A DNA stretch of 64,000 nt from Burkholderiales bacterium RIFCSPHIGHO2_12_FULL_69_20 (GCA_001770815.1 MESD01000167.1:1-64000); one strand, 5' to 3'; shown: positions 48,510-60,177, numbered from the stretch's first letter. Program-made: numbers and translations. The notes: generated by a model from the letters alone, not told the origin.

Positions 48510-49832
48510 TCAAGCCGCGGTGTCGTCGCGCCGACCGTAGGCCGGATCGATGTGCAGCAGCGCGGCGGCGATGAACGACGGCAGCGTGGCCACGCACACC
48601 CAGACGAAGAAGCCGGTGTAGCCCAGCTGGCTCTGCAGCCAGCCCGCGGCCATGCCCGGCAGCATCATGCCCAGCGCCATGAAGCCGGTGCAGATCGCGT
48701 AGTGCGCGGTCTTGTGGGGGTTCTCGCCGCCGCCGCCGGGCCGGCTGCCTTCGGCCACCATCAGCATGAACACCATGTAGGCGGTGAAGCCGAAGCCGTA
48801 GCCGAACTGCTCGGCCGCCAGTGCGGTGCTGACCAGCCACAGGTCTTGCGGCTGCCACACCGCCATCGCCACGAACAGGCCGTTGGGCAGGTGCATGCAC
48901 AACATCAGCGGCCACAGCAGGCGCTTGAGTCCGCCGCGCGAGATCACCCAGCCGCCCAGCAGCCCGCCCAGCGTCAGCGCGGCCACGCCCACCGTGCCGT
49001 AGGCCAGCCCCACGGCCTGAGTGCCCAGTGCCAGGCCGCCGGCCGCGCGCGCATCCAGCAGGAAGGGCGTGACCAGCTTCAGGGCCTGCGCCTCGGCAAA
49101 GCGGTACAGCAGCAGGAAGGCCAGGATGCGACCGATGTCGGGCCGGCGGAAGAAGGCCGCGAACACCGCCAGCGCCTCGCGCGCCAGCGCGGCCTGGCGC
49201 GGTGCGGCCACGTCGGCGGCCGGTCGTGGCAGCGCCCAGGCGTGCCACGCCGCAGCCACGACGAAGCCGCCGGCCAGCAGCCAGAAGACCAGGCGCCACG
49301 AGTCGACCACCGCCGCCGGCGTGCCGCCGTGGCGCTGTTGCAGCCAGCCGGCCAGCATCACCAGGCCACCCTGGCCGGCGATCATCGCCAGCCGGTAGAA
49401 GGTGCTGCGCACGCCGACGAAGGCCGCCTGTGTGCGCTGCGGCAGCGCCAGCATGTAGAAGCCATCGGCGGCGATGTCGTGCGTGGCCGAGGCAAAGGCC
49501 ATCAGCCAGAACACCGCCAGGCTGGCCTGCCAGAAGCCGGCCAGCGGCAAGGTCAGCGCCACCAGCGCCAGCGCCGCGCCCAGCGTGAACTGCAGCCCCA
49601 CGATCCAGCCGCGCTTGCGGCCCAGCAGATCGACCAGCGGGCTCCACAGCGGCTTGATCACCCAGGGCAGGTACAGCCAGCTGGTGTAGAGCGCGATGTC
49701 GGTGTTGCTGACGCCGAGGTTCTTGTAGAGCACCACCGACAGCGTCATCACCACCACGTAGGGGATGCCCTGGCCGAAGTACAGCGTCGGTATCCAGCGC
49801 CAGGGCGTGGGCGCGCTGCTCACGCCGGGCAC
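48510..49832 (-). CDS. MFS permease, AmpG-like
   Basis: PTLYFGQGIPYVVVMTLSVVLYKNLGVSNTDIALYTSWLYLPWVIKPLWSPLVDLLGRKRGWIV. Confidence 0.8.
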   Translation of the reverse strand: MPGVSSAPTPWRWIPTLYFGQGIPYVVVMTLSVVLYKNLGVSNTDIALYTSWLYLPWVIKPLWSPLVDLLGRKRGWIVGLQFTLGAALALVALTLPLAGFWQASLAVFWLMAFASATHDIAADGFYMLALPQRTQAAFVGVRSTFYRLAMIAGQGGLVMLAGWLQQRHGGTPAAVVDSWRLVFWLLAGGFVVAAAWHAWALPRPAADVAAPRQAALAREALAVFAAFFRRPDIGRILAFLLLYRFAEAQALKLVTPFLLDARAAGGLALGTQAVGLAYGTVGVAALTLGGLLGGWVISRGGLKRLLWPLMLCMHLPNGLFVAMAVWQPQDLWLVSTALAAEQFGYGFGFTAYMVFMLMVAEGSRPGGGGENPHKTAHYAICTGFMALGMMLPGMAAGWLQSQLGYTGFFVWVCVATLPSFIAAALLHIDPAYGRRDDTAA

Positions 49833-49917
49833 CGAAACGGGGGAGGTGCGTCGGATTCAAACCACATCGACGGCACTTTACAGGCCATGGCAGGGCTCAC
49901 TCCAGATTACACCTGCG

Positions 49918-49945
49918 TTACACACGCGAGTCGGTACGGTAAAGT
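49918..49945 (+). promoter_or_regulatory. Putative sigma-70-type promoter for the TonB-dependent receptor gene
   Basis: TTACAC-N16-TAAAGT, about 110 bp upstream of the start codon. Confidence 0.4.
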
Positions 49946-50053
49946 GATTTGAAGATTTGCTGCTTCGAGGCCTGCGCAGGCTCATCGGGCCCCGGCCCGG
50001 CAGCAAGGATCAACAACGGGATGCAAGCGGCCGAGGCCGGAGGAGTGCTGGAT

Positions 50054-52855
50054 ATGAAGCTCAAGTCGATCGTTCGGGCCATTGCCCTGCTGAGTGTGGC
50101 CGCGCCGGTGCTGGCGCAAACCACCCCCGCGGTGCAGCGGGTGGAGATCACCGGGTCCAGCATCAAGCGTTTCGCCAAGGAGGGGGCGCTGCCGGTGCAG
50201 GTGATCCGCGCGGCCGATCTTCAGCAACTGGGCATCGTCACCGCCGAGCAGCTGCTCGACCAGGTGGGCGCCAACGCCGCCAGTGTCGACAACGCCACCT
50301 CGCGCAACAACGTCTTCGGCGCCGAGCAGGACCGGCTGACAGGCGGCTCGACCTTCGCCAACCTGCGCGGCCTGGGCCCCACCGGCACGCTGGTGCTGCT
50401 CAACGGCCGGCGCGTGTCCACCCACGGCATGAGCGGCGGCGCCGTTGACCTCAACGCCATTCCGATGGCCGCCGTCGATCGCATCGAGATCCTGAAAGAT
50501 GGCGCCTCGGCCATCTATGGCACCGACGCGATCGGCGGCGTCATCAACTTCATCCTGAAGACCGACTTCACCGGCGTCAGCGTGGGCGCCACCTACAGCC
50601 AGCCGCTGGCCTCGGGCGGTGGCGCCAAGCGGCGTGCCCAGATCACGGCGGGCATGGGCTCGCTGGACAAGGAGGGCTTCAACCTGATGGCCAGCCTGAC
50701 GGCCGACAAGAACGACATCCTGCGTGGCATCGACCGCGACTGGGCGACTGGCTTCCAGCCGGCGCGCGGCCTGTCGCCCGACACCACCAGCGCACCGCAT
50801 GCCAACGTCCTGGGCTCGGGCACCGGCACGACGGCGCTGGATGCCGCGGGCTCCACCGTCGGCCCCACCGATCCGCTGAAGTACACCAACCTCAACCTGC
50901 TGGCGATCCAGAACCAGTGCGACGGACTGCCCTTCGGTGTGCCTCTGGCCCCCAACATCCAGCTGTGGGACAAGTTCGGCTACACCGCGGCCAACAGCAC
51001 CTACCGTTGCGCCACGGACTACGGCCGGCAGTTTATGCTGGCGCCGCCTGTCGATGCCTACAACCTGGTGGCGCGCGGCACCTTCAAATTGTCCGGCGCG
51101 CACACCGCTTTCGTTGAGTTGGTGGGCTCGCGCACCGAGGTATTGGCCGAGTTCACGCCCTACCAGTTCAGCACCACCTCCAACGCCGCCACGCACTATC
51201 CGGTGGGCGGCCCGCACTACCTGAACCTGCTGAACTACGGCGCCAACCAGTTCGATCCGACCAAGCCCATTGCCTACCGCCTGCGTATGGCCGATTGGGG
51301 CTACCGCACGCTGGAGAACACCTCTGACAACGTGCGCCTGGCTGCCGGCCTGGACGGCGAGATCGGTGCCTACAACTACAAGTTGGGCCTGTCTACCGGG
51401 CGTGCCGAGGGCGAGTCGGGCATGGTCGACGGTTATGCCGATACCAACAAACTGATCGCCGCATTGGCCACCGGCTTGATCAATCCGTTCCTGATGCCCG
51501 GCCAGCAGCAGACGCAGGCCGCCAAGGACCTGATCGAATCGACCAAGGTCCGTGGCCGGCTGTTCGGTGGCAAGACCGAGCTGATGCAGTTCGACGGCAC
51601 GCTGTCGGGCGAGCTGATGAAGATGCCGGCCGGCCCGCTGGAGTTCGCGGTCGGCTTCGACCTGCGCCGCGAGTCCTACGACTTTTCCGGCTCCCAGGGC
51701 TTCACCTGCGTCAGCACCTTCACGGTGACCAATGCCGCGTTGCCCAATTCGGTGATGGGCTGTCCGGGCAACCCTTCGTCGCCCGACAAGTCGCGCGACG
51801 TGAAGGCCGTGTTCGGCGAGCTGATCGTGCCGGTGCTCAAGAACCTGGAAGTTCAACTGGCCGTGCGCCACGACGAGTACTCGCAGGTGGGCGGCACCAC
51901 CAACCCGAAGGTGGCGTTCCGCTTCCAGCCGATCGACAGCCTGGTGCTGCGTGGTTCGGTGAACACCGGCTTCCGCGCACCCACGGTGCAGCAGCTCAAC
52001 CTGGGCGTGGTCGAACTGGCGCTGACCGGCAACTTCAGCGACCCCGAGCGCTGCGCGATCGATCCGGCGCAATGCGCCCGTGTCAGCCTGCCCTACCGCG
52101 CCGGCGGCAACCCGACGCTCAAGCCCGAGACCTCCAAGCAGGCGTCGCTGGGCCTGGCGTTCCAGCCGATGCCCGCGCTGCAGCTGACGGCCGACTACTG
52201 GCAGGTCAAGCTCAACGACCGCATTCGCTCGCTGTCACCGGCCTTCATGATCACGAACTACGCGCTGTTCAAGGACAGCTTCATCCGCGATGCGCAGGGC
52301 AACGTGAGCTACATCCAGGCCGGCTGGGTGAACGCAGCCGAAAGCGAGACCAAGGGCCTGGATCTGGGCATGACCCACAGTGCCAATCTGTTCGGCGGCA
52401 AGCTGAGCACCACGCTGACCGCCACCAAGATGATCAGCCACAAGGAGCGGTTGATCGAAACCGCCCCGCTGAAACAGTACGTGGGCGAATGGAGCGGCAC
52501 CACGCTGTACCTGCCCTGGAAGGCGTCCGGCAGCGCCGGCTTCAAGACCGGCCCCTGGAACACCACCCTGTCGATCAACTACAAGTCGAGCTACAACGAC
52601 GAGAACATGTTGGGCTACGACAGCACGCCGCTGCCGGCGCGCAAGGTGTCCGACTACACCACCTTCAACCTGTTCAGCACCTACACCGGGATCAAGAACC
52701 TGACGTTGTCGGCCGGCATCATCAACCTGTTTGACAAGGAACCGCCGTTCACGTGGCACAACGTCGACGGCGTGGTGGGCGCGGGTTGGGACCCCCGTGT
52801 GGCCGATCCGCGCGGCCGCACCGTGCAGCTGTCGGTGAGCTACGACTTCAAGTAA
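50054..52855 (+). CDS. TonB-dependent outer membrane receptor
   Basis: Signal peptide, plug VEITGSSIKR...GPTGTLVLLNGRRVSTHG...VDRIEILKDGASAIYGTDAIGGVINFILK and terminal beta-signal VQLSVSYDFK. Confidence 0.96.
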   Translation: MKLKSIVRAIALLSVAAPVLAQTTPAVQRVEITGSSIKRFAKEGALPVQVIRAADLQQLGIVTAEQLLDQVGANAASVDNATSRNNVFGAEQDRLTGGSTFANLRGLGPTGTLVLLNGRRVSTHGMSGGAVDLNAIPMAAVDRIEILKDGASAIYGTDAIGGVINFILKTDFTGVSVGATYSQPLASGGGAKRRAQITAGMGSLDKEGFNLMASLTADKNDILRGIDRDWATGFQPARGLSPDTTSAPHANVLGSGTGTTALDAAGSTVGPTDPLKYTNLNLLAIQNQCDGLPFGVPLAPNIQLWDKFGYTAANSTYRCATDYGRQFMLAPPVDAYNLVARGTFKLSGAHTAFVELVGSRTEVLAEFTPYQFSTTSNAATHYPVGGPHYLNLLNYGANQFDPTKPIAYRLRMADWGYRTLENTSDNVRLAAGLDGEIGAYNYKLGLSTGRAEGESGMVDGYADTNKLIAALATGLINPFLMPGQQQTQAAKDLIESTKVRGRLFGGKTELMQFDGTLSGELMKMPAGPLEFAVGFDLRRESYDFSGSQGFTCVSTFTVTNAALPNSVMGCPGNPSSPDKSRDVKAVFGELIVPVLKNLEVQLAVRHDEYSQVGGTTNPKVAFRFQPIDSLVLRGSVNTGFRAPTVQQLNLGVVELALTGNFSDPERCAIDPAQCARVSLPYRAGGNPTLKPETSKQASLGLAFQPMPALQLTADYWQVKLNDRIRSLSPAFMITNYALFKDSFIRDAQGNVSYIQAGWVNAAESETKGLDLGMTHSANLFGGKLSTTLTATKMISHKERLIETAPLKQYVGEWSGTTLYLPWKASGSAGFKTGPWNTTLSINYKSSYNDENMLGYDSTPLPARKVSDYTTFNLFSTYTGIKNLTLSAGIINLFDKEPPFTWHNVDGVVGAGWDPRVADPRGRTVQLSVSYDFK

Positions 52856-52868
52856 GGGCCTGGACGGG

Positions 52869-53495
52869 GTGGACGCGCTGAATCTTCAGACGCCGGTGCG
52901 CGTCGAAGACATCGCCACGCACCCCGATTTCCGCCCGCTGGCCGGGCTGGTGGGTGTCGCGTTTGACCTGCGTTATGCCGGCAGCAACAACTTTGCCGGC
53001 AAGGTGCTTGACCAAGGGCTCGATTGCGCCTGGCTGCGCCGCGAGGCGGCGGCCGGCGTCGAGGCCGCCGCGGCCTGGCTGGCGCAGGCGCGGCCGGGTT
53101 GGCGGCTGCTGGTGCTCGATGCCTTGCGCCCGCACCGCGTGCAGCAAGCGATCTGGGCCGACGTGGCCGGCACGCCGGCGCAGGCCTACTTTGCCGATCC
53201 GGCGCGCGGCTCGATCCACTCCTTCGGCATGGCGGTGGACGTGACGCTGATCGACGCCCACGGCCGCGAGAGCGACATGGGCAGCGGCTACGACGAGATG
53301 ACGCTGCGCTCGCACCCGATGCTCGACGCCGAGCACCTGGCGCTGGGCGTGCTGAGCGCCGCGCAGGTGGCCGAGCGGGGCTGGCTGCACGCGGCGATGG
53401 CGCGCGGTGGTTTCCGCGCCATCGCCACCGAGTGGTGGCACTTCGATTTCGGCGACCGCGACGCGGTGCGGCGCGATCTGCCGCGGGTGGATTGA
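52869..53495 (+). CDS. D-alanyl-D-alanine dipeptidase (DdpX/VanX family, M15D)
   Basis: LLVLDALRPHRVQQAIW, GSIHSFGMAVDVTLID zinc motif and ATEWWHFDF. Confidence 0.92.
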   Translation: MDALNLQTPVRVEDIATHPDFRPLAGLVGVAFDLRYAGSNNFAGKVLDQGLDCAWLRREAAAGVEAAAAWLAQARPGWRLLVLDALRPHRVQQAIWADVAGTPAQAYFADPARGSIHSFGMAVDVTLIDAHGRESDMGSGYDEMTLRSHPMLDAEHLALGVLSAAQVAERGWLHAAMARGGFRAIATEWWHFDFGDRDAVRRDLPRVD

Positions 53496-53508
53496 GCGGG
53501 GGCCGGCG

Positions 53509-54576
53509 ATGACCGCAACCCTGCGCCGACGCGCGCTTCTCAGACAAGGCGTCACGCTGACCGGCGCCACGCTGCTGCCTTGGGGCGCCGCGCCGGCGAT
53601 GGCGCAAACCGCCGTCACCCGGTTGCCGGTGCTGCGCGCACCGCGCCTGAAGCCGGGCGACACCATCGGCCTGTTCAGCCCGTCGGGCGCCACCTACGAG
53701 CGCGCGCCGTTCGAGCAGGCCGCCGAGGTGCTGGCGGCGCTGGGTTTCCAGGCGCGCGAGGCGCCCAACGCGCGTGCGCGCCGCGGCCAACATGCCGGCA
53801 GCGCCGAGCAGCGCGCGGCCGACCTCAATGGCCTGATCGCCGACCCATCGGTGCACGGCCTGCTGGCGGTCACCGGCGGCTCGGGCGCCAACCGCATGCT
53901 GCCGCTGATCGACTACGCGGCGATACAGCGCCAGCCGAAGGTCATCGCCGGCTTCAGCGACGTGACGGCGCTGCTCAATGCGGTGACCGCGCGCACCGGG
54001 CTGGTCACCTTCCATGCGCCGGTGGCGGTGTCGGAGTGGAACGCCTTCAGCGTGGCCGAGTTTCGCGCGGTGCTGATCGACGCCGAGGCGCGCACGCTGC
54101 GCAATGCCGAGGACAGGGGCGACCACCTGATCGTCAAGGCGCACCGCATCCAGACGCTGCGCCCGGGCACCGCGCGCGGCCCGCTGGTGGGCGGCAACCT
54201 GGCGGTGCTGACCTCGATGGCCGGCTCGGCCTACCTGCCCAGTTTCGACGGCGCGATCCTGTTCCTCGAAGAGATCAACGAGTACATCTACCGCGTCGAC
54301 CGCATGCTGTCCACGCTCAAGCTGATGGGCGCGCTCGACCGCCTGGCCGGCGTGGTGATCGGCGCCTTCAGCAACTGCGGGCCGGGCGACGGCAACTACG
54401 GCACGCTGACGCTCGACGAGGTGTTCGACGACTGGTTCGGCGCGCTGGGCGTGCCGGTGTACCGCGGCGCGATGATCGGCCACATCCGCAAGAAGTTCAC
54501 CGTGCCGGTGGGCTTGCCGGTGGAGATGGATGCCGGCGCCGGCACGATCCGGCTGCTGACGCCGGCGGTGCGCTGA
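53509..54576 (+). CDS. LD-carboxypeptidase (LdcA/MccF family, S66), exported
   Basis: RRRALLRQGVTLTGATLLPWGAAPAMAQ twin-arginine-like leader; VTGGSGANRMLPLIDY and GFSDVTALLNAV. Confidence 0.9.
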   Translation: MTATLRRRALLRQGVTLTGATLLPWGAAPAMAQTAVTRLPVLRAPRLKPGDTIGLFSPSGATYERAPFEQAAEVLAALGFQAREAPNARARRGQHAGSAEQRAADLNGLIADPSVHGLLAVTGGSGANRMLPLIDYAAIQRQPKVIAGFSDVTALLNAVTARTGLVTFHAPVAVSEWNAFSVAEFRAVLIDAEARTLRNAEDRGDHLIVKAHRIQTLRPGTARGPLVGGNLAVLTSMAGSAYLPSFDGAILFLEEINEYIYRVDRMLSTLKLMGALDRLAGVVIGAFSNCGPGDGNYGTLTLDEVFDDWFGALGVPVYRGAMIGHIRKKFTVPVGLPVEMDAGAGTIRLLTPAVR

Positions 54577-57196: not shown

Positions 57197-57892
57197 TCAA
57201 GCCCTTGCGCGGCTGCCGAAGATGGCGGTACCCACGCGCACCATTGTCGCGCCCTCGGCGATGGCGGCTTCCAGGTCGGCGCTCATGCCCATCGACAGCG
57301 TGTCCAGCGTCAGGCCCTGTGCGTTCAGCGTGGCCAGCAGGTCGCGCAGCGCCCGGTGCGGCGCCCGCTGCGCCGCCTCGTCGCCCGCGGGTTCGGGGAT
57401 GGCCATCAGCCCGCGCAGGCGCACCCGCGGCAGCGCCGCGACGGCGCGCGCCACGGCCGGCACCTCGGCGGGTGCCAGGCCGCTCTTGCTGGCCTCGCCG
57501 CTGATGTTGACCTGCAGGCACAGCTGCAGCGGCGCCAGCCCGGCCGGGCGCTGCTCGCTCAGGCGCTGCGCGATCTTCAGCCGGTCGATCGAGTGCACCC
57601 AGTCGAAGGCCTCAGCCACCGGCCGCGTCTTGTTGCTTTGCAGCGGGCCGATCAGATGCCATTCGATCTGGCGGCGCAGATCGGCCAGCGTGGTGATCTT
57701 GTCCAGCGCCTCCTGCACGTAGTTCTCGCCGAAGGCCCGCTGGCCGGCGGCAAAGGCGGCGCGCACCGCGTCGGGTGATTGCGTCTTGCTCACCGCCAGC
57801 AGCGTGACGCTGTCCACGACACGGCCCGCCGCGGTGCAGGCGCGCGCGATGCGGCTGTGGACTTGCTGCAGGTTGCCGATAACGGTCGTCAT
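57197..57892 (-). CDS. yggS: YggS-family pyridoxal phosphate homeostasis protein
   Basis: LLAVSKTQSPDAVRAAFAAGQRAFGENYVQEALDK...WHLIGPLQSNKTR...LSMGMSADLEAAIAEGATMVRVGTAIFG. Confidence 0.95.
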   Translation of the reverse strand: MTTVIGNLQQVHSRIARACTAAGRVVDSVTLLAVSKTQSPDAVRAAFAAGQRAFGENYVQEALDKITTLADLRRQIEWHLIGPLQSNKTRPVAEAFDWVHSIDRLKIAQRLSEQRPAGLAPLQLCLQVNISGEASKSGLAPAEVPAVARAVAALPRVRLRGLMAIPEPAGDEAAQRAPHRALRDLLATLNAQGLTLDTLSMGMSADLEAAIAEGATMVRVGTAIFGSRARA

Positions 57893-57919
57893 AATGTTGC
57901 GAGCCTAACCCGAGCCACC

Positions 57920-58963
<1,044 letters not shown>

Positions 58964-59040
58964 TCCCAGCGCTTGAACGGGCCGGGGGGTAACACCCGGC
59001 TGCGACACCATCAAAACAAAGTACCCGGGAGTGAAGCACC

Positions 59041-60177
59041 ATGGAACGCGACCAGGCCTCCAAGTTCATCAACGACCTGCTGCGGCTGATGGCCACGCGC
59101 GGCGGCTCGGACCTGTTCCTCACCGCTGAATTTCCGCCCGCCATCAAGGTGGACGGCAAGGTGACCCGGGTGTCGCCGCAGCCGCTGACCGGCCAGCACA
59201 CGCTGGCGCTGGCGCGCTCGGTGATGAACGAGCGCCAGGCGGCCGAGTTCGAGCGCACCAAGGAGTGCAACTTCGCCATCTCGCCGCAGGGCATCGGGCG
59301 CTTCCGCGTCAACGCCTTCATGCAGCAGGGCCACGTGGGCATGGTGATGCGCACCATCCCGCAGGTGCTGCCCACCATCGACGGGCTGGGCCTGCCGCCG
59401 GTGATGAAGGAGATCGCGATGACCAAGCGCGGTCTGGTCATCATGGTGGGCGCCACCGGCTCGGGCAAGAGCACCACGCTGGCGGCAATGGTGGACCACC
59501 GCAACGAGAACAGCTTCGGCCACATCATCACCATCGAAGACCCGGTCGAGTTTGTGCATCCGCACAAGAACTGCATCGTCACCCAGCGCGAGGTGGGCAT
59601 CGACACCGACGGCTGGGAGGCGGCGCTGAAGAACACGCTGCGCCAGGCGCCCGACGTGATCCTGATGGGCGAGATCCGCGACCGCGAGACCATGGAGCAT
59701 GCGGTGGCCTTTGCCGAGACCGGCCATCTGTGCATCACCACGCTGCATGCCAACAGCGCCAACCAGGCGCTCGACCGCATCATCAACCTGTTTCCCGAAG
59801 AGCGCCGCCAGCAGCTGCTGATGGACTTGTCGCTGAACCTGAAGAGCATCGTCTCGCAGCGGTTGCTGCCGCGCCAGGAAGGCAAGGGCCGCATCGCCGC
59901 GGTGGAGATCCTGCTGAACACGCCGCTGATCAGCGAGCTGATCTTCAAGGGCGAGGTGGCCGAGATGAAGGACCTGATGAAGCGCAGCCGTGAGCTGGGC
60001 ATGCAGACCTTCGACCAGGCGCTATTCGACCTGTACGAGGGCAACGAGATCACGCTGGAAGACGCGCTGCGCAACGCCGACTCGGTCAACGACCTGCGCC
60101 TGCAGGTCAAGCTGCACAGCCACCGCGCGCGCAACCGCGACCTGTCCGCCGGCACGGAACACATGAGCATCATGTGA
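59041..60177 (+). CDS. pilU: Type IV pilus ATPase PilU
   Basis: PilT paralogue with GATGSGKSTTLAAMVDHRN and LLNTPLISELIFKGEVAEMKDLMKRS; follows pilT. Confidence 0.96.
   Translation: MERDQASKFINDLLRLMATRGGSDLFLTAEFPPAIKVDGKVTRVSPQPLTGQHTLALARSVMNERQAAEFERTKECNFAISPQGIGRFRVNAFMQQGHVGMVMRTIPQVLPTIDGLGLPPVMKEIAMTKRGLVIMVGATGSGKSTTLAAMVDHRNENSFGHIITIEDPVEFVHPHKNCIVTQREVGIDTDGWEAALKNTLRQAPDVILMGEIRDRETMEHAVAFAETGHLCITTLHANSANQALDRIINLFPEERRQQLLMDLSLNLKSIVSQRLLPRQEGKGRIAAVEILLNTPLISELIFKGEVAEMKDLMKRSRELGMQTFDQALFDLYEGNEITLEDALRNADSVNDLRLQVKLHSHRARNRDLSAGTEHMSIM

Follow-up and report, generated by a model that had tools for sequence, protein, structure and literature searches.

A TonB-dependent receptor gene linked to peptidase genes in Burkholderiales: a candidate module for the uptake and catabolism of peptidoglycan fragments

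Peptidoglycan recycling is usually described at the inner membrane (AmpG, Opp-MppA, YejBEF-YepA); by what route muropeptides, whether released or foreign, get through the outer membrane has, to our knowledge, rarely been addressed. This question is raised by a locus of four genes (positions 48510-54576) on a stretch of 64,000 nt from Burkholderiales bacterium RIFCSPHIGHO2_12_FULL_69_20 (GCA_001770815.1, MESD01000167.1:1-64000; the whole stretch is hereafter referred to as the window). The four genes had been proposed by an earlier reading made from the sequence alone (the sequence-only reading), and open reading frames and family matches agreed with it for all four. They encode an AmpG-like permease of the major facilitator superfamily (MFS; 48510..49832, minus strand, GTG start, 440 aa), a TonB-dependent outer-membrane receptor consisting of signal peptide, plug, and barrel (50054..52855, plus strand, 933 aa), a DdpX/VanX-type (M15) D-Ala-D-Ala dipeptidase (52869..53495, plus strand, GTG start, 208 aa), and an S66 peptidase of the LdcA/MccF superfamily (53509..54576, plus strand, 355 aa). 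The spacing given by that reading (13 bp between the collinear genes and ∼220 bp between the divergent ones) was reproduced, the gaps receptor/DdpX and DdpX/S66 measuring 13 bp each and the gap MFS/receptor 221 bp. Judged from the comparisons described below, the locus is probably a compact module for the uptake and catabolism of peptidoglycan fragments (muropeptides or stem peptides). With somewhat less assurance, its receptor can be regarded as a member of a previously unrecognized family of TonB-dependent transporters for such fragments, occurring across Burkholderiales, Alteromonadales, Lysobacterales, sphingomonads, and Opitutales.

Whether the four genes belong together was assessed by using each protein as a query against 201 genomes from the family to which the window belongs. 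Orthologues and paralogues fell into separate score bands, both for the receptor (≥505 versus ≤454 bits) and for the MFS permease (about ≥495 bits, plus two fragmented genes, versus about ≤300 bits). Receptor orthologues were present in 24 of the 201 genomes, and every one of these 24 also contained orthologues of DdpX and of the permease; permease orthologues were present in 28 genomes, 25 of which had DdpX. The hypergeometric probability of this co-occurrence, not corrected for phylogeny, was about 1e-21 to 1e-27. The gene order differed between genera, the DdpX-S66 pair being located either upstream or downstream of the receptor gene and the MFS gene being adjacent to the locus, separated from it by about 10-40 kb, or placed on a different contig. 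Thus, the association persists through rearrangement.

The cluster of the relatives is larger than that of the window. It contains genes for a PBP4/DacB-type D,D-peptidase with a lipobox, an AmpD-type amidase with a peptidoglycan-binding domain and a lipobox, a GHL10 glycosidase, a MurQ-type SIS protein (etherase), a BadF-type sugar kinase (distantly NagK-like), a NagX/HGSNAT-type membrane protein, a D-amino-acid dehydrogenase (DadA), an ornithine-cyclodeaminase-type dehydrogenase, a DppA-type binding protein together with the Dpp ATP-binding cassette (ABC) transporter (DppBCDF), a LysR regulator, a class A β-lactamase-like protein, and, often, a second S66 peptidase. It is a nearly complete toolkit for degrading peptidoglycan to D-alanine and amino sugars. 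The most constant neighbors of the receptor are the peptidases S66, DdpX, and DacB, even where no sugar gene was seen. In the genome of the window, the genes for DacB, the AmpD-type amidase, GHL10, and MurQ are adjacent to each other on a separate contig (C19). In several genera, a gene for an AstE/AspA-type metallopeptidase is repeatedly found next to the cluster (L032:2781-5001, L045:18383-19354).

When public genomes were scanned with the alignment of the receptor, 80 loci were obtained, distributed over Burkholderiales, Alteromonadales, Lysobacterales, sphingomonads, and Opitutales. They were scored for nine peptidoglycan gene families; the control set consisted of 20 loci with paralogues of the receptor, drawn from the family sample above. 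When receptor identity was at least 40%, 32 of 33 loci contained at least one of these gene families, and 30 of 33 at least two. None of the 20 control loci contained any (Fisher p 1e-13). Between 37 and 40% identity, peptidoglycan genes were found at 15 of 26 loci, and below 37% at 4 of 21. Adding further kinds of peptidoglycan genes raised the count to 60 of 80 (versus 0 of 20 for the controls), a figure that is partly circular, because the additional queries had themselves been chosen from these loci. Several distant loci first scored as empty do have such genes: a Novosphingobium locus carries an S13 peptidase, and distant receptors of Rheinheimera, Alishewanella, and Luteimonas (L132, L137, L139, L144, L147, L161) are encoded near a gene for an NlpC/P60-SH3 endopeptidase, and also near a gene of the enolase superfamily of the dipeptide-epimerase type. 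The search for co-occurrence that the sequence-only reading had called for was, thus, strongly positive (24/24 within the family, 32/33 among the close public homologues), and synteny, which it had left to be shown outside this one genome, is conserved well beyond it; an independent genome from a lake metagenome (L108) even has the identical order, with MFS divergent from receptor, DdpX, and S66. Because the set recurs in many genera, the locus was confirmed as a real gene set and not a product of chance.

The receptor itself matched the Pfam plug and barrel domains far above cut-off. None of the NCBIfam subfamily models for siderophore, heme, B12, and SusC receptors reached its curated cut-off with this protein, the best score being 120 bits (TIGR01785; cut-off 317). 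In a phylogenetic tree, all 20 control paralogues, which stem from related genomes, were placed outside the receptor clade (SH-aLRT, the approximate likelihood-ratio branch support, 100), and the receptor of the window grouped with those of L103 (74% identity) and L108 (72%). The concern that it might cluster with siderophore, B12, or sugar receptors was eased by these subthreshold scores and by a clade set apart from the 20 paralogues.

The DdpX-type protein scored 93 bits with Pfam PF01427, which is above cut-off, and stayed below the NCBIfam equivalog cut-offs for DdpX (129.8 bits; cut-off 176) and VanX (52.6 bits; cut-off 320). It aligns with VanX, the zinc ligands and catalytic residues of the M15 family are present, and R87, H117, D124, E188, and H191 are invariant across the orthologue alignment. 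No signal peptide was found at its N-terminus in the window or in the orthologues inspected. Because an export signal is absent, DdpX very probably acts in the cytoplasm, and a periplasmic role for it was abandoned in correction of the sequence-only reading. The S66 peptidase, in contrast, carries a twin-arginine-like signal (RRRALLRQG...), which is shared by almost all orthologues inspected, and the earlier proposal that it is exported was upheld on this basis; its predicted location is the periplasm. Both S66 domains (PF02016 and PF17676) were identified in it by Pfam. With the equivalog model for LdcA (muramoyltetrapeptide carboxypeptidase), it scored 167.3 bits, below the cut-off of 378. 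Its GFSD, LEEINE, and GH motifs, which presumably constitute the Ser-Glu-His triad, align with MccF structures, and among solved structures MccF scored somewhat higher (146 bits) than LdcA (111 bits); the substrate may be that of either enzyme.

For the MFS permease, the nearest NCBIfam model was TIGR00901 (AmpG family), with 163.6 bits at a cut-off of 350; the model for RhtX/FptX gave 85.7 bits. All four of its matches in the PDB are AmpG/muropeptide permeases (E about 1e-15 to 1e-19). The canonical AmpG of the same genome is encoded elsewhere (G000:C61:32472-33959; 448 bits with TIGR00901). Because of the score below cut-off and the canonical AmpG on contig C61, the permease is a second, distinct, noncanonical AmpG-like family rather than AmpG itself. 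MFS orthologues of the relatives are located in MurQ-MFS-NagX-GHL10 gene strings. Two orthologues (G117:C194:7908-9164 and G145:C31:52686-53960) contain an in-frame TGA, which may indicate a pseudogene or a sequencing error.

How these proteins might cooperate can be outlined as follows. The receptor would import soluble peptidoglycan fragments across the outer membrane, energized by TonB. The fragments could originate from dead neighbors or from the cell's own turnover lost to the medium, scavenging of foreign walls and recapture of own fragments being indistinguishable by sequence. Trimming of the stem peptide in the periplasm would fall to the exported S66 peptidase, with the help of the lipoprotein PBP4/DacB, the AmpD-type amidase, and GHL10 from the C19 locus, the domains of which are present and the activities of which are presumed. 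Entry of the product (a muropeptide, a sugar, or a peptide) into the cytoplasm would be through the AmpG-like permease and, in relatives, through Dpp as well. There, going by their families, DdpX would split D-Ala-D-Ala and MurQ would convert N-acetylmuramic acid (MurNAc) 6-phosphate to N-acetylglucosamine (GlcNAc) 6-phosphate. Muropeptides, free stem peptides, and amino sugars can all be considered as ligands; peptide-bearing fragments are favored because peptidases constantly adjoin the receptor. The core of what the sequence-only reading had put forward, TonB-dependent entry followed by processing of peptidoglycan, is, thus, retained on the strength of synteny and the receptor clade, but the periplasmic step would be performed by S66 (in relatives, also by DacB and the amidase) and not by DdpX.

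Several observations weigh against this interpretation. Sampling was phylogenetically uneven, and 20 of the 80 public loci, nearly all with less than 40% receptor identity, have no recognized peptidoglycan neighbor. Two genomes of the same genus lack orthologues of the receptor and of DdpX, which indicates that the module is dispensable. A NagX homologue was not found in the window's genome, and the kinase is represented there only by a 38% relative. Finally, the solved receptors nearest in sequence or fold are those for siderophores, B12, heme, and colicins. The AlphaFold model of the receptor is confident (pLDDT, the predicted local distance difference score, 83.4), and its Foldseek matches are TonB receptors. 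The modeled fold is generic, and a ligand can not be read from it: the best PDB matches are only 9-17% identical, so no ligand follows from structure, and the structure-based ligand prediction that had been suggested earlier was carried out and yielded none.

The alternative closest to the favored interpretation leaves the pathway as it is but gives the receptor an amino sugar in free form, or a glycan, as its substrate (MurNAc, GlcNAc, denuded glycan, or a chitin-like oligosaccharide), the peptidases belonging to the regulon since peptidoglycan is the natural source of these sugars. This is possible, if rather unlikely. A TonB receptor for GlcNAc is known from Caulobacter (PMC13046382), and the MFS gene of the relatives lies directly between the genes for MurQ and NagX/GHL10, all of which are sugar related. 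Yet the receptor's most constant neighbors are the peptidases S66, DdpX, and DacB, which accompany it also in the absence of sugar genes, and distant members of the family adjoin genes of the NlpC/P60 and dipeptide-epimerase types, the products of which act on stem peptides.

Other readings assign the receptor a ligand unrelated to peptidoglycan nutrition, or no functional link to its neighbors. It could be the importer or the target of a peptide or nucleotide-peptide antibiotic, which the MccF-like S66 protein and DdpX would detoxify; DdpX/VanX-type dipeptidases are also found in glycopeptide resistance, and the higher score of the S66 protein with MccF than with LdcA structures fits such a role. 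Since no biosynthesis, ligase, or VanA/VanH-type gene was recognized in the loci read, and since the genes that regularly accompany the locus are those of peptidoglycan catabolism (AmpD, MurQ, DacB, DadA), this scenario is improbable; processing of a peptide antibiotic, which the sequence-only reading had offered as an alternative, is, thus, disfavored by the content of the cluster, though less so for the S66 member. A pairing of the receptor with a RhtX/FptX-like permease for iron-siderophore uptake, the hydrolases being unrelated, was prompted by the weak matches of the receptor to siderophore and heme models and by the 85.7 bits of the permease. These matches are far below the curated cut-offs, the AmpG-family score of the permease is twice as high, no siderophore gene was seen, and peptidoglycan genes are linked to 32 of 33 close homologues. 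This very improbable reading was, therefore, rejected on the basis of its subthreshold scores and the peptidoglycan neighborhood. That common gene families merely came to be adjacent in a GC-rich genome is scarcely credible. Taken singly, each family is indeed common, and orthologues of the receptor and DdpX are missing from both of the genomes examined in the same genus, but the co-occurrence and neighborhood statistics, the identical order in L108, and the 0 of 20 controls speak against coincidence, which is already contradicted by the neighborhood data.

How does a module for uptake and catabolism of peptidoglycan fragments compare with known systems? Classical Gram-negative recycling (AmpG, LdcA, AmpD, NagZ, MurQ) deals with the cell's own periplasmic fragments, employs a cytoplasmic LdcA, and requires no outer-membrane receptor. 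The locus has an AmpG-like permease, the L,D-carboxypeptidase family, an amidase, and MurQ classes in common with it, but here S66 is apparently exported, and the permease, a second homologue, diverges from the canonical AmpG, which is encoded elsewhere. In E. coli, ddpXABCDF is an operon for D-Ala-D-Ala utilization with a cytoplasmic DdpX; as there, ddpX adjoins Dpp-type ABC genes in the relatives of the window, but the E. coli operon is not known to include a TonB receptor, S66, or AmpG-like gene. The closest published system found is the ampG-murTKQ operon for peptidoglycan salvage of Tannerella forsythia, which scavenges the walls of other bacteria (PMC5388701, PMC7670621). There, the gene for an AmpG homologue is co-located with those for a MurNAc kinase and the MurQ etherase, and a likewise grouping of AmpG-type permease, MurQ, and kinase is met in the relatives studied here (MurQ-MFS-(NagX)-GHL10-BadF kinase-AmpD strings). 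T. forsythia, however, belongs to the Bacteroidota, TonB is not mentioned in these papers, and no DdpX or S66 partner was reported, whereas DdpX, S66, and the TonB receptor are core members of the present locus. The muropeptide importer YejBEF-YepA of Agrobacterium is likewise an alternative route across the inner membrane, but of the ABC instead of the MFS type, and the abstract of the paper describing it names no outer-membrane receptor (PMC9790009). In Caulobacter, clusters for GlcNAc resemble the locus in combining a TonB receptor with an inner-membrane transporter and amino-sugar catabolism (PMC13046382); they differ in taking up GlcNAc via a phosphotransferase system and in having no peptidases. 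GlcNAc is also the only substrate for which the paper on Caulobacter recycling names TonB receptors (PMC13046382).

In the literature searched, GlcNAc receptors were the only TonB systems tied to cell-wall sugars, and no TonB receptor for peptidoglycan fragments was described; the coverage of this search was incomplete and is, hence, no proof of novelty. The enzymes of the locus are of known kinds, and the dedicated TonB receptor (family) is the new part of peptidoglycan salvage. If the assignment is true, many Gram-negative bacteria would bring wall fragments across the outer membrane by active transport, and not by diffusion through porins alone. A dedicated receptor family would make the crossing of the outer membrane by muropeptides directly testable, would explain how some bacteria feed on the wall debris of dead neighbors, and would point to a port through which muropeptide-drug conjugates might enter.

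Some of the public loci deserve mention individually. In Rheinheimera (L132), the NlpC/P60 and epimerase-type genes are directly divergent from the receptor gene. In Pseudoalteromonas neustonica (L138:9986-16920), the receptor gene is followed by genes for a protein of the tryptophan-halogenase family and for a fusion protein composed of an N-acetylmuramoyl-L-alanine amidase and a serine β-lactamase domain. The MFS permease and receptor nearest to those of the window (76 and 74% identity, respectively) are encoded on a contig labeled Brevundimonas, from an alphaproteobacterial metagenome genome (L103:8500-13000), the similarity reflecting either mis-binning or horizontal transfer. A metagenome contig of Opitutia (Verrucomicrobiota; L173:2000-17500) carries genes for a receptor, DacB-like, NagX-like, and GHL10 proteins, and an AmpG-like MFS permease, the best segment of which is 68% identical to that of the window; this gene set suggests that the pathway may cross phyla.

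As to expression, no terminator-like sites were found in the gaps between the genes, and the receptor, DdpX, and S66 genes may be co-transcribed. The divergent intergenic region (49833..50053) putatively holds the promoters; a promoter scan gave no match to the sigma-70 consensus. The block TACGGTAAAGTGAT (49935-49948) was also present in the matching intergenic region of one other genome (G054, L032); apart from this block, shared with one genus, the alignment of the divergent intergenic region gave no conserved block. The locus is flanked by two adjacent genes for type II/IV secretion ATPases (57779-60177), a PilT/PilU-like pair. In G012, inspected for a possible insertion of the locus relative to sister species, the two flanking genes tested are on different contigs. 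The second PilT/PilU-like gene is 95% identical in a genome of the same genus, which indicates that the locus sits in ordinary chromosome.

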